Of a stretch of 64,000 nucleotides of DNA, positions 1-27,667 are shown piece after piece (the first letter of the stretch is position 1; each line of letters begins with the position of its first letter). The notes under the pieces are model-generated. The model was not told where the DNA came from. It saw only the letters and a list, made by a program, of their open reading frames with translations, and did not search any database. The stretch is from Stenotrophomonas maltophilia (GTDB lineage Bacteria > Pseudomonadota > Gammaproteobacteria > Xanthomonadales > Xanthomonadaceae): contig NZ_RXLZ01000015.1 in the NCBI RefSeq assembly GCF_003970865.1, positions 1 through 64,000 of the forward strand, read 5' to 3'. The position numbers and the translations under genes were made by a program.

Positions 1-525
1 CCGAGCGGCCCAATCAGAAGTGGGTGACTGACGTGACCGAGTTCAAGGTGCAAGGCATGAAGCTGTACCTGTCGCCGATCATGGACCTCTACAACGGCGA
101 AATTGTGGCTTATCAGATCAAGCGCCAACCCGTGTTCGACCTGGTGGGTCAGATGCTGGAGGAGGCCATCAAGAAGCTCGCACCGGATGAGCGCCCCATG
201 ATCCACTCCGACCAGGGCTGGCAGTACCAGCATGAAAACTACCGGCACATGCTGGAAAAACACTCTTTGAAGCAAAGCATGTCCCGGCGTGGCAACTGTC
301 TGGACAATGCGGCAATGGAGAGCTTCTTCGGGACACTGAAGTCGGAATTCTTCTACCTGAACAGCTTTGACAGCATCGAAAATCTGGAGGCTGGGCTGGT
401 GGAATACATCCAGTACTACAACGAAGAGCGCATCAAATTGAAATTGAAAGGCCTGAGCCCGGTAAAGTACCGGGAGCGGGCCCAATCGGCCGCCTGACCC
501 CGTCCAAGTCTCGGGGGTTACTTCA
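1..525 (+). mobile_element. IS3-family insertion sequence, 3' end only
   Basis: This is the right-hand end of an IS3-family element whose left part lies before the window. The transposase reading frame is open at base 3. After its stop, the sequence GGGGGTTACTTCA at 513-525 resembles the terminal inverted repeat of the IS150 group, whose ends carry a GTNACTNCA-type terminus, so I place the right boundary at about 525. The left terminal repeat and the target duplication cannot be seen, so the boundary is approximate. Confidence 0.6.
3..497 (+). CDS. IS3-family transposase (OrfB), 5'-truncated by the window edge
   Basis: This is the catalytic half of a DDE integrase-type transposase that cuts and joins IS ends. 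The frame is open upstream of the first GTG: the codons before it read ERPNQKW, running into VTDVTEFKV, the usual start of the rve core. The first Asp is in VTDVTEF, the second in HSDQGWQYQ, and the Glu is in AMESFFGTLKSE, so the D-D-E triad is intact. The C-terminal YIQYYNEERIKLKLKGLSP motif is typical of the IS150 group. In this group OrfB is normally made by frameshifting from OrfA, which is outside the window. Whether the element is still active cannot be judged here. Confidence 0.9.
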   Translation, partial: ERPNQKWVTDVTEFKVQGMKLYLSPIMDLYNGEIVAYQIKRQPVFDLVGQMLEEAIKKLAPDERPMIHSDQGWQYQHENYRHMLEKHSLKQSMSRRGNCLDNAAMESFFGTLKSEFFYLNSFDSIENLEAGLVEYIQYYNEERIKLKLKGLSPVKYRERAQSAA

Positions 526-610
526 CCATGGGGGCTTGGTCGCGGCATCCATGCCGCTCACACCCCGCAAACCCACAGTACCCCGCCTTCGACAGGTTCA
601 CGCGGCTGTT

Positions 611-740
611 GGTGGGTGCCGACCGTTGGTCGGCACATCTGTCAGATATCGAATGAATCATCCACGCATGGCGTGGATCTACTGGCAATTGCGATTGTTG
701 GCACGCGCGGCTGTTGGTAGGTGTCGACCTTGGTCGACAC
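611..740. repeat. Three SMAG-type palindromes
   Basis: Three short palindromes follow the IS end: GTGCCGACC/GGTCGGCAC (616-636), ATCCACGC/GCGTGGAT next to CTAC (659-682), and GGTAGGTGTCGACC/GGTCGACAC (715-740). They match the GTAG-headed repeats spread through the other gaps of this window. No coding sequence is evident in 526-818. Short open frames here are long only because of base composition. Confidence 0.75.
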
Positions 741-818: not shown

Positions 819-922
819 GGTGGGGCGGGTAGGCCATGCAGGGGCGTTGGCGCCATGGATGGCGCCATCGAGCTTACAGGGACGTACTTGCAGCGTCCCC
901 TGCATGGCCTACCCGCCCCGCC
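819..922 (+). repeat. Structured repeat, copy A (three-way-junction palindrome)
   Basis: The outer arms 819-844 and 897-922 pair over 26 positions with one G-T wobble. Inside is a hairpin TGGCGCC-ATGGAT-GGCGCCA (848-867). The conserved core CGAGCTTACAGGGACGTACTTGCAGCG follows, split here as 869-888 and 889-895, and can form GACG/CGTC around TACTTGCAG. Copies B (16225) and C (27566) share the loop and core, but both arms of the stems have different sequence. I read it on the + strand, the strand on which all three copies show the same core. No family name is assigned. Confidence 0.75.
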
Positions 923-11543: not shown

Positions 11544-11639
11544 TGGCGGAAGGCAGCAGGAGTCGAACCTACCAGGGAACGATCGACGCCCCCTACTGGG
11601 TTTGAAGCCCAGCCGCATGCCCGGATGCGCATGCCTTCC
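11544..11639 (-). tRNA. selC: tRNA-Sec (anticodon UCA)
   Basis: Read on the minus strand, the gene begins GGAAGGCA and ends TGCCTTCC-G-CCA, giving the eight-base-pair acceptor stem typical of bacterial tRNA-Sec and an encoded CCA. The anticodon arm is CTGGG-CTTCAAA-CCCAG with anticodon TCA, which reads UGA. A long variable arm (GGGGGCGTCGATCGTTCCC region) and the T arm with GGTTCGACTCC follow. At 96 nt with CCA it is the long class expected for Sec. It sits between selB (24-bp gap) and selD (26-bp gap), so it may be processed from an operon transcript. Confidence 0.97.
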
Positions 11640-16151: not shown

Positions 16152-16179
16152 GTGTCGACCAAGGTCGACACCCACCAAC
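16152..16179. repeat. SMAG palindrome upstream of structured repeat copy B
   Basis: TGTCGACC/GGTCGACA with the flank CCCACCAAC. The same palindrome and flank sit at the same distance in front of structured repeat copy C (27500-27529), so the two form one composite repeat. Confidence 0.7.
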
Positions 16180-16224: not shown

Positions 16225-16326
16225 GGCGGGGTGGGTCCGGTTGCGGGGGCGTGAGCCGCATGGATGCGGCGACCGAGCTTACATGGACGTACTTGCAGCG
16301 TCCCCCGCAACCGGACCCACCCCGCC
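16225..16326 (+). repeat. Structured repeat, copy B
   Basis: The outer arms 16225-16249 and 16302-16326 are perfectly complementary over 25 bp. The inner hairpin is GCCGC-ATGGAT-GCGGC (16255-16270). The core GAGCTTACATGGACGTACTT (16275-16294) follows. Compared with copy A the two outer arms differ at many positions yet still pair, and the hairpin stem has changed on both sides around the same ATGGAT loop. It lies between fdoI and fdhE, in the antisense direction to both genes if transcribed on the + strand. Confidence 0.8.
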
Positions 16327-17965: not shown

Positions 17966-20900
17966 CTACACCTTCTCGACCTTGACCAGGATGCACTTCG
18001 ATTCGGGCGTCTGCGAGTTGCCGTCACCGATGGCATTGGTCAGCGTATTGGCGATGTATCCGGGCTTGGCCGCACCGAGGAAGCCCCAGTGGATGGGCAC
18101 GCCCACCTGATGCACGGTCCGGCCATCGATCTGCAGGGCCTTGATGCGCTTGGTCACCATGGCTACCGCTTCGATGTGACCACGCTTGGAACTGACGCGC
18201 ACGCGGCTGCCGTTGTTGATGCCCAGCTCGTCGGCCAACGCCGCGCCGATCTCGACGAACTGCTCGGGCTGGATGATGGCGTTCAACTTGCCGTGCTTGG
18301 TCCAGAAGTGGAAATGCTCGGTCAAGCGGTAGGTGGTGGCCACATGCGGGAACTCGTCCGGCGAACCGATCTGGGCACGGTCGCTGGCGAACACGCGTGC
18401 CGCCGGGTTGTTCAGCGTCAGTGCCTGGCCGGGGCTGAGCGGGTTGCTGCGCAGTGGCGTGTCGAACGGCTCGTAGTGCTCCGGGAACGGTCCCTCGGCC
18501 ATGCCGGCCTTGGCGAAGAAGCGGGCGATGCCTTCCGGGTTCATGATGAACGGGCCCATCCCGCCGGCGGGATCTTCGTCGGCCTTGAAGTCCGGCACGT
18601 CCACGCTGCCCCAGTTCATGCCGTTCCAGGCCAGCAGCGTGCGCCGCGGGTCGAACGGCTGGCCGGCCACGTCGCACGAGGCGCGGTTGTACATCACGCG
18701 GCGGTTGGCCGGCCACGCCCAGGCCCAGCCCAGCGTATTGCCGATGCCGGTGGGGTCGCTGTTGTCACGCCGCGCCATCATGTTGCCGGTCGGGCCCCAG
18801 GCACCGATGTAGATCCAGCAGCCGGAGGAGGTGCTGCCGTCGTCGCGCAGGTCGCCGAACGCGGCCAGCTGCTCGCCGGCCTTGCGCACCAGCTTGGTCG
18901 GGTCCTTCGGATCGAACACGTCGGCCAGCGCCTTGCCGTTGTATTCCATCGCCAGTTCTTCCGGCGTCGGCAGTTCCGGGTTGGAATACTTCCAGGCCAG
19001 GTCGCGCACCGGTTCCCACCATGCACCGCCGTCCTTCTCGTACATCGCTTTGATGCGATGGAACAGCTCGGACATGATCTCGATGTCGCTGCGTGCTTCG
19101 CCCGGCGGATTGGCACCTTTCCAGTGCCACTGCAGCCAGCGCGAGGAGTTCACCACTGCGCCGTTCTCCTCGGCGAAGGAGGTGGTCGGCAGGCGGAATA
19201 CTTCGGTCTGGATGGTGCCCGGATCGACGTCGTTCAACGCACCATGGTTCTGCCAGAAGGCGATGGTCTCGGTTTCCAGCGGGTCCATGCTGACCATGAA
19301 CTTCAGCTTGGAGAACGCACTGATCAGCTTGCCCTTGTTCGGCGCCGAGGCCAGCGGATTGAAACCCTGGCAGATGTAGCCATGGATCTTGCCTTCGTTC
19401 ATCAGCTCGTACGCCTGCAGCATGTCGTACGGCTTGTCGAGCTTGGGCAGGTGGTCGAAGCACCAGTTGTTGTCGGCGGTGGCGGCATCGCCCCACCACG
19501 ACTTCATCAGGCTGACGTGGAACTTCGGGTAGTTCTGCCAGAACGACATCTGGTTGGCACGCAGCGGCTTCTGCGTGCGCTTGGCGATGTAGGCGTCGTA
19601 GTCCTGTTCGTCCTGTTTCGGCAGGGTCAGGTAGCCGGGCAGCAGGTCGGACATCAGGCCGATGTCGGTCAGGCCCTGGATGTTGGAATGCCCGCGCAGC
19701 GCGTTCATGCCACCACCGGCCACGCCGATGTTGCCCAGCAGCAGCTGCACCATGGTGCCGGCACGCACGTTCTGCGCGCCGATCGAGTGCTGCGTCCAGC
19801 CCAGCGCGTACAGGATGGTCATCGCCTTGTCCTTGCTGGCGGTGGACGCGATCATCTCCCAGACTTGGCGGATGCTGTCGGCCGGCGTGCCGCAGATGCG
19901 TTCGACCATCTCCACGGTGTAGCGCGCGTAGTGCTGCTTGAGCAGGGTGTAGACGCAGCGCGGGTCCTTCAGCGTCGGGTCGCTGCGCACGAAGCCATCA
20001 TCGCCGTACACATAGTCCCAGCTGGAACGGTCGTAGCTGCGTTTTTCCTCGTTGTAGCCCGAATACAGGCCGTCCTTGAAGGCGAACTCGTCCTTCACCA
20101 GGAACGACATGTCGGTGTAGTTCAGCACGTACTCGTGCTGGATGCGGTCCTCGGTCAACAGGTAGTTGATCAGGCCACCCAGGAACACGATGTCGGTACC
20201 GGTGCGGATCGGCGCGTACACGTCGGCCACCGCGGCCGAGCGGTTGAAGCGCGGATCGACCACGATCAGCCGGGCCTTGTTGTGTGCCTTGGCCTCGGTC
20301 ACCCATTTGAACCCGCACGGGTGCGCCTCGGCGGCATTGCCACCCATGATCAGGATCAGGTCGGCATTCTTGATGTCGACCCAGTGATTCGTCATCGCAC
20401 CACGGCCTAGCGTCGGGGCAAGACCTGCCACCGTCGGGCCGTGTCAGACACGTGCCTGGTTGTCGAATGCCAACATGCCAAGGGAGCGGACGACCTTGTG
20501 GGTCAGCACCGCGGTTTCGTTGCTGGTGGCCGAGGCCGCCAGCATGCCGGTGGTCAGCCAGCGGTTGACCGTCTGCCCGGCTTCGTTCTTCTGCACGAAG
20601 TTGGCATCGCGGTCTTCCTTCATCAGCCGTGCGATGCGGTCCAGCGCATCGTCCCAGCTCAGCCGCTTCCACTCGTTCGAACCCGGCGCGCGGTACTCGG
20701 GGTAGAGCAGGCGAGACTTGCTGTGGATGATGTCGGCCAGGCCGGCACCCTTCGGGCACAGCGTGCCGCGGTTGACCGGATGGTCCGGGTCGCCCTCGAT
20801 GTGGAAGATGCTCGGCTCGGCGTTCTTGGCGCCATCGCCGAGGCTGTACATCAGGATGCCGCAGGCCACCGAACAGTAGGTACAGGTGTTGCGGGTCTCG

Positions 20901-27363: not shown

Positions 27364-27529
27364 TTGATGGGTGTGGACCTTGGTCCGCACATCCACGCAT
27401 GGCGTGGATCAACATCGCGCTGCGCGCGGGAGTCGAGCAAGGCTCGACTCTACAGACAGCGCTTTCGATCATTTCCATGTTCATCCACGCATTGCATGGA
27501 TGTGTCGACCAAGGTCGACACCCACCAAC
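27364..27529. repeat. SMAG array after recG
   Basis: At least four palindromes in a row: GTGTGGACC/GGTCCGCAC, ATCCACGC/GCGTGGAT, GAGTCGAGC/GCTCGACTCTAC, then ATCCACGC/GCATGGAT joined to TGTCGACC/GGTCGACA. Almost every SMAG subtype of the window is present here. The last unit leads directly into structured repeat copy C. Confidence 0.8.
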
Positions 27530-27565: not shown

Positions 27566-27667
27566 GGCGGGGTGGGTCCGGTTGCGGGGGCGTGAGCCGC
27601 ATGGATGCGGCGACCGAGCTTACATGGACGTACTTGCAGCGTCCCCCGCAACCGGACCCACCCTGCC
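27566..27667 (+). repeat. Structured repeat, copy C
   Basis: The outer arms 27566-27590 and 27643-27667 pair over 25 positions with a single G-T wobble. The inner hairpin is GCCGC-ATGGAT-GCGGC (27596-27611), then the core GAGCTTACATGGACGTACTT. It is nearly identical to copy B, including about 60 bp on either side. It lies between recG and the nucleoside hydrolase, both on the + strand, so it is the copy most likely to be transcribed in the + direction. Confidence 0.8.

Follow-up and report, generated by a model that had tools for sequence, protein, structure and literature searches.

Twin-hairpin repeats dispersed through genomes of Gammaproteobacteria as candidate CsrA-docking RNAs

Three structured repeats in a 64,000-nucleotide stretch of Stenotrophomonas maltophilia DNA (the window) are members of a class-wide dispersed repeat of Gammaproteobacteria, and we hold with moderate confidence that the + strand RNA of each copy may dock the RNA-binding regulator CsrA. 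The anatomy of the element, its covariation, the conserved loops and their spacing, the folded strand, the copy number, the exchange of interiors and the kinship with the Rfam families TwoAYGGAY and Ysr224 were all obtained by computation. The original prediction had placed copies at 819-922, 16225-16326 and 27566-27667, and all three were located there on the + strand, together with a fourth, broken copy.

819..922, + strand: copy A of the twin-hairpin element (sequence and fold; 97.8 bits with R1, a covariance model trained on 65 members of the family, copy A among them; 31.4 bits with RF01731)
819-844 and 897-922, + strand: outer arms of copy A
845..870, + strand: hairpin 1 of copy A, hexaloop ATGGAT at 855-860 (fold and sequence)
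872..894, + strand: hairpin 2 of copy A, hexaloop AGGGAC at 878-883 (family covariation; absent from the single-sequence MFE pairing)
16225..16326, + strand: copy B (sequence; 92.2 bits with R1, copy B lying outside the model's members)
16225-16249 and 16302-16326, + strand: outer arms of copy B
16255..16270, + strand: hairpin 1 of copy B, GCCGC-ATGGAT-GCGGC, hexaloop at 16260-16265
16277..16299, + strand: hairpin 2 of copy B, hexaloop ATGGAC at 16283-16288 (family covariation; absent from the single-sequence MFE of this strand)
27566..27667, + strand: copy C (sequence; 92.2 bits with R1, copy C lying outside the model's members)
27566-27590 and 27643-27667, + strand: outer arms of copy C
27596..27611, + strand: hairpin 1 of copy C, hexaloop ATGGAT at 27601-27606
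27618..27640, + strand: hairpin 2 of copy C, hexaloop ATGGAC at 27624-27629 (family covariation)
488..564, - strand: fourth, broken copy with a CCC-type hairpin 2 (covariance model, 28.2 bits, E 5e-6)

The loop ATGGAT and the core GAGCTTACA(G/T)GGACGTACTT had been described as common to the three copies, and the loop-plus-core pattern indeed matched three times in the window, against 0.00 expected from 100 shuffles; the core includes hairpin 2 (TAC-ANGGAC-GTA), whose loop is of the same kind as that of hairpin 1. As also described, the outer arm and hairpin 1 of copy A differ from those of copies B and C (GGCGCC versus GCCGC in hairpin 1) with pairing kept over 25-26 bp, and the fold z-scores against shuffles were -8.5, -9.1 and -8.4 for copies A, B and C, respectively. 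Since copies B and C are nearly identical in sequence, the window provides only two independent examples. The broken copy, divergent to copy A, is interrupted after the ATGG of its second loop; the ORF beside it (24-497), read by eye, is presumably an IS3-type transposase, and a cut at this place (window 470-590, - strand), beside such an ORF, suggests that the loop may be a preferred site of insertion.

Throughout the family, the unit of about 100 nt consists of an outer stem, hairpin 1 with a variable stem, GAGC, hairpin 2, GCGT and the closing outer arm, and in most copies both hairpins carry the loop C-ANGGAY-G, 23 nt apart, on stems that vary. The outer-arm sequence is nearly free, with 139 distinct arms among 239 copies having an arm of at least 14 pairs (median 30 pairs by local alignment; 239 of 251 copies were used, copies with short flanks having been left out at extraction). 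In alignment A3 (65 copies), 88.0% of cells were paired compared with 58.4% after shuffling, 663 cells were changed on both sides compared with 218 ± 12, and the covariation score fell from 0.71 to at most 0.19 when the partner was slid by 1-3 columns. Alignment A2 (66 sequences) gave 654 doubly changed cells against 224, the members of both alignments having been picked for differing arms. Covariation, for which the original prediction had proposed a check on wider alignments, was strongly supported in both, and its claim that the pairing is not a product of chance is borne out by the A3 counts and by the fold z-scores.

Many loci had been gathered by patterns that fix parts of the core, so that conservation there comes partly from the way the loci were selected, and for this reason hairpin 1 was tested on a collection gathered by hairpin 2 only. 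Within 36 nt upstream, ANGGA was found in 95 of its 116 copies and the strict C-ANGGAN-G in 71, in a set that includes near-identical copies from one genome; the strict motif occurred in only 3 of 333 control windows. ANGGA was lacking upstream of 21 copies and the strict loop was lacking in 45, while 67 of the 71 strict-loop copies had a GGA-to-GGA spacing of 23 nt. Where loop 1 was present, the hairpin 2 stems other than TAC/GTA were CCC/GGG (23), TCC/GGA (10), GCC/GGC (1) and CAC/GTG (1), with three non-complementary, and where it was missing 10 were complementary versus 9 that were not (chance complementarity being 1 in 64, and the loci having been fetched before any non-TAC pattern). The 89 hits of the covariance model gave A 88, G 88, G 87 and A 88 for loop 1 and A 87, G 87, G 87 and A 81 for loop 2, with a closing C-G in most at both, figures that are partly circular since the hits come from 62 chosen loci and the model was built on such loops.

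The core GAGCNTACANGGACGTA matches exactly at 38 places in the genome of origin (reversed control, 0), and a looser core yielded 40 copies which, together with 22 copies bearing a CCC/GGG-type hairpin 2, make at least 62. Among 274 gammaproteobacterial genomes, this one included, the first type was present in 25, the CCC/GGG type in 6 and one or the other in 26; one other genome had 295 copies, many of them reading CATGGAG with a shorter loop, and reversed-pattern controls were zero. The matches listed include Stenotrophomonas, Xanthomonas, Marinobacter, Shewanella, Rheinheimera, Microbulbifer, Idiomarina, Methylotuvimicrobium, Halopseudomonas and Pectobacterium, among others. A covariance model matched 25 of 299 Pseudomonadota genomes at E ≤ 1e-4, all 25 of them Gammaproteobacteria, in a scan that scored at most 14 candidates per genome and whose output did not give the share of the sample outside that class. 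Copy B had no match in phages and a Xanthomonas pair had none in plasmids; a Pectobacterium copy matched 16 plasmid records, 14 of which are predicted to be conjugative. In E. coli the element was found in 5 of 5426 genomes, with four of the five places on plasmids. Replichore polarity was rejected as an explanation of orientation, a narrower pattern in genome G249 lying 32 times forward and 42 times reverse, intermixed, and S. maltophilia SJTL3 likewise displayed no replication polarity (22 and 11 per strand).

Mismatches within the arms distinguish the two strands. Read on the + strand, G.U occurred 187 times and A.C 58 times, other types averaging 32.5 (158 distinct arms and 4272 pairs, two pairs trimmed at each end); G.U outnumbered A.C in 88 copies and was fewer in 17 (p 1e-12), a direction shared by the own-genome, sampled and named sets and by genomes of low and of high GC content. 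Because G.U exceeds A.C there, it is the fold of the GGA (+) strand that has been maintained, and the strand-specific excess speaks for + strand RNA or single-stranded DNA rather than for a symmetric cruciform, a strand-biased mutation process being a possible source of the same excess. The original prediction had offered either a folded RNA or a cruciform-dependent DNA element: a folded single strand stands, on two alignments and the G.U excess, whereas the symmetric cruciform is disfavoured. Energy folding of the window copies gave no hairpin 2 on the + strand and formed it on the - strand of copies B and C.

At Rfam gathering cut-offs no match to the element was found anywhere in the window. 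TwoAYGGAY (RF01731) scored copy A below its curated cut-off of 43 bits and did not list copy B up to E 10; 11 loci of genome G186 lie above that cut-off, and it is also passed by family loci L242, L246, L285 and L298. L285, of the CCC type, scored 44.0 bits with TwoAYGGAY on the same strand and 96.1 bits with our own model. TwoAYGGAY, like the element, has an outer stem enclosing two AYGGAY-loop hairpins on the same strand; in the element the outer stem likewise holds both hairpins inside, and the loops of copies B and C (ATGGAT, ATGGAC) conform to AYGGAY, loop 2 of copy A (AGGGAC) conforming to ANGGAY only. The TAC-type hairpin 2 is short here, whereas that of the Rfam model is long. TwoAYGGAY is described as of unknown function, and the available portions of its descriptions make no mention of a high-copy dispersed repeat (PMC2864571, PMC4333381), one of them recording tandem GA pairs in a stem (PMC4333381).

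The second family, Ysr224 (RF02770), aligned to the - strand and scored copy A at 32.2 and copy B at 20.7 bits, short of its cut-off of 70. Locus L296 reached 82.4 bits with Ysr224 at 1469-1575 on the + strand, our own model placing the element at 1501-1593 on the - strand, and the annotated strand of Ysr224 has ATCCAT-type loops rather than GGA. According to the accessible text of two reports, Ysr224 is among the 20 most prevalent sRNAs (PMC9029176) and several copies are expressed in Yersinia ruckeri (PMC12112432). Since sister loci pass the cut-offs on opposite strands, TwoAYGGAY and Ysr224 look like the two strands of one element family, a kinship that rests on the loci scored rather than on the full Rfam seeds. 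The earlier failure to tie the repeat to a named family thus holds for the window copies, which fall below both cut-offs, and no longer holds for their sister copies. Rfam microRNA matches were also below cut-offs and were taken as long-hairpin artefacts.

REPs (GTAG/CGTC, SMAG) and TIR repeats resemble the element as dispersed palindromes, many near 3' ends, that also occur in S. maltophilia. REPs, as characterised in the portion of the source available, are 20-40 bp long with a terminal tag (PMC3733652), whereas the element spans about 100 nt and combines two conserved loops with arms of free sequence; it is not a 20-40 bp palindrome with a terminal GTAG/CGTC tag, and the diversity of its arms (139 distinct in 239 copies) is not that of the conserved terminal inverted repeats of a MITE. 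The same text describes CGTC dimers in a 41-bp palindrome of Halothiobacillus neapolitanus with 'attcacg' beside one arm (PMC3733652), which, given the ATTCACG of the core, possibly belongs to the same family.

A companion palindrome accompanies the copies in the window. Exact GTGTCGACC...GGTCGACAC palindromes occur there only three times, each starting 64-98 nt before a copy.

721..740, no strand assigned: GTGTCGACC palindrome located 5' of copy A
16152..16171, no strand assigned: GTGTCGACC palindrome located 5' of copy B
27502..27521, no strand assigned: GTGTCGACC palindrome located 5' of copy C

Among 38 own-genome copies, 20 have the palindrome within 220 nt on their 5' side and none has it on the 3' side, and the element in this genome seems to travel within a composite unit of fixed polarity. 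Neighbours less than 1 kb apart were divergent in 37 of 53 cases, and all eight pairs less than 400 nt apart among the 38 own-genome loci were divergent.

At two orthologous Stenotrophomonas loci, which we take from their ORFs, named by eye, to be fdhE-fdoI and recG-iunH, the outer arms and loops are kept and the interior is swapped between genomes (L344 versus L346 and L354; L314 versus L315). The alternative interiors are a GCCGC hairpin 1 with a TAC/GTA hairpin 2, or CCGCGGC with CCC/GGG, and on these sequence comparisons the swap fits an exchange between dispersed copies. Scored by pattern, 12 of 20 orthologous stretches at the first locus and 10 of 20 at the second carry the element, 4 of the 10 misses at the second showing a variant core by eye, and several element-free sites are deletions with remnants (L358, L360, L361, L363). 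In L338, at the second locus, the element's place is taken by a tandem array whose units comprise the GTGTCGACC palindrome together with another repeat. A hairpin-rich insertion of about 80 nt was observed in the hairpin 1 loop of L008, L012, L019, L022 and L036, copies that differ in their arms, following ATGG where the left side is readable; a further genome has it at the second locus (L331).

The gene context was surveyed with a simple ORF caller for 109 high-GC copies that have a called gene on each side, 8 copies that fell within called ORFs being excluded. Convergent genes flank 47 of these copies, 32 have both neighbours antisense, 23 have both sense and 7 are flanked by divergent genes; the right-hand gene is directed into the element in 79 (median distance 92 nt), the left-hand one in 70. 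For 66 of the 109, the closest called gene lies antisense to the GGA strand (p 0.035), as does copy B to its operon (genes named by eye), and the flank on the - strand side is T-richer. The element as a sense 3'-UTR feature was rejected, gene context from simple ORF callers giving it no support, and an approximate sigma-70 weight matrix revealed no enrichment upstream of 278 copies that would indicate a promoter of its own. In two enterobacterial plasmid records a copy lies 82 nt after an iron-containing alcohol dehydrogenase gene, the GGA strand being antisense to that gene in the one record whose copy was scored. The window also contains a selenocysteine tRNA and a SECIS element (11544-11639 and 20391-20449), near what are, by eye, presumably formate dehydrogenase genes.

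In the model that we propose, each copy would act as a structured RNA of the + strand in which the long clamp stem holds two short hairpins, and one CsrA/RsmA homodimer would engage both loops of a copy simultaneously. The tens to hundreds of copies would then constitute a distributed decoy pool for CsrA, or CsrA-bound parts of host transcripts, and the family would spread as a non-autonomous dispersed repeat whose interiors are traded by recombination. Transcription of the + strand, CsrA binding, the decoy effect and the mode of spread are what we infer from the computed features, and two GGA loops at a fixed spacing would suit one dimer. We take the ANGGAN hexaloop closed by C-G to be the CsrA SELEX/RsmE consensus, the binding hairpin of CsrA/RsmA, and work by Dubey in 2005 and by Schubert in 2007 reportedly made it the ideal CsrA/RsmE site. 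The window copies carry paired hairpins with this C-ANGGAN-G hexaloop, as does the family, with a strict loop 1 in the 71 of 116 copies given above. For TwoAYGGAY, CsrA binding has been proposed from its two GGA hairpins, such motifs being usually paired because CsrA is a dimer, as far as the available text goes (PMC4333381).

The host genome encodes a canonical CsrA. Of the 49 genomes known to bear the repeat, 42 were scanned for CsrA and 40 gave a match, the two exceptions being draft assemblies of 88% and 98% completeness. Because CsrA was detected in 24 of 30 chosen repeat-free genomes as well, this co-occurrence says little. One repeat-bearing genome, G384, had nine CsrA matches compared with one or two in most others. 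The sRNAs that sequester CsrA/RsmA are one or few transcribed loci with several GGA sites each. CsrB, CsrC, RsmX/Y/Z and RsmU share with the element GGA hairpin loops for CsrA, whereas the element has two GGA sites per unit, is dispersed, and had no promoter that we could find. When all four predicted GGA motifs of Xanthomonas RsmU were changed, RsmA binding persisted (PMC7694677), so that GGA loops alone are no proof of docking; according to the accessible text, sRX061/RsmU has no Rfam homologue (PMC7694677). Literature searches joining CsrA, 'repetitive extragenic palindromic' and GGA found nothing, and sequence-word searches of papers yielded nothing relevant.

Counting against CsrA docking are the lack of a sigma-70 signal upstream, the antisense position of the nearest gene (66 of 109) and of copy B relative to its operon, the strand of Ysr224, which is the only match here to a family reported as expressed and lies on the opposite strand, and energy folding, which yields hairpin 2 on the - strand of B and C and never on the + strand of the window copies. 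Several of these observations are shared by the explanation that the element is a bidirectional terminator or a protector of mRNA 3' ends read from the opposite strand, with incidental loops. The - strand folding of hairpin 2, the - strand Ysr224 model, the T-richer flank on that side, the 47 of 109 copies between convergent genes and the 79 right-hand genes running into the element at a median of 92 nt would all suit such a role, but the G.U excess belongs to the + strand and a terminator has no need of ANGGAY loops at a fixed 23-nt spacing, and we regard it as quite unlikely.

A rather better, though still improbable, case can be made for mobile DNA of the REP or MITE kind, in which + strand single-stranded DNA loops would be bound by a tyrosine (HUH) or other transposase and the likeness to CsrA sites would be coincidental. 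Copy number is high and patchy, close neighbours are mostly divergent (37 of 53), few copies sit between divergent genes (7 of 109), plasmids carry copies (14 of 16 records predicted conjugative), the palindrome lies 5' of 20 of 38 own-genome copies, and single-stranded DNA also tolerates the G.T wobble; transposase-linked TIR repeats are, moreover, recorded in S. maltophilia in the available text of PMC3733652. The ends of the element are nevertheless not conserved, its arms being of nearly any sequence, which is the opposite of a transposon end, and the same loop displayed twice on changing stems points to a loop-binding dimer. The arm covariation could also be a mutational by-product, template switching correcting imperfect palindromes without selection on the fold, a view favoured by the long, near-perfect arms (median 30 pairs); this process predicts no strand difference, whereas G.U exceeds A.C threefold, and it leaves the hairpin stems and loops unexplained, so that this reading is already disfavoured and has in our estimation only the slightest chance of being correct.

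Returning to CsrA docking in its widest form, we suggest tentatively, and with rather less assurance than for the docking itself, that these repeats may be self-spreading, recombining CsrA-docking RNA cassettes, present in up to hundreds of copies per genome, that act as mobile decoys setting CsrA activity beside the few sponge sRNAs, with TwoAYGGAY and Ysr224 as the two strands of the family. CsrA/RsmA governs metabolism, motility and virulence, and to our knowledge few RNAs that restrain it are known in Xanthomonadaceae; RsmU is presented as novel in the available text of its report (PMC7694677). If this proposal is true, a dispersed repeat that forms an ideal double site for CsrA would represent a new means of tuning a global regulator, and would be an instance of a repeat linked to an RNA-binding protein of its host. 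The finding would also connect two Rfam families, and its prediction is strand-specific and directly testable.
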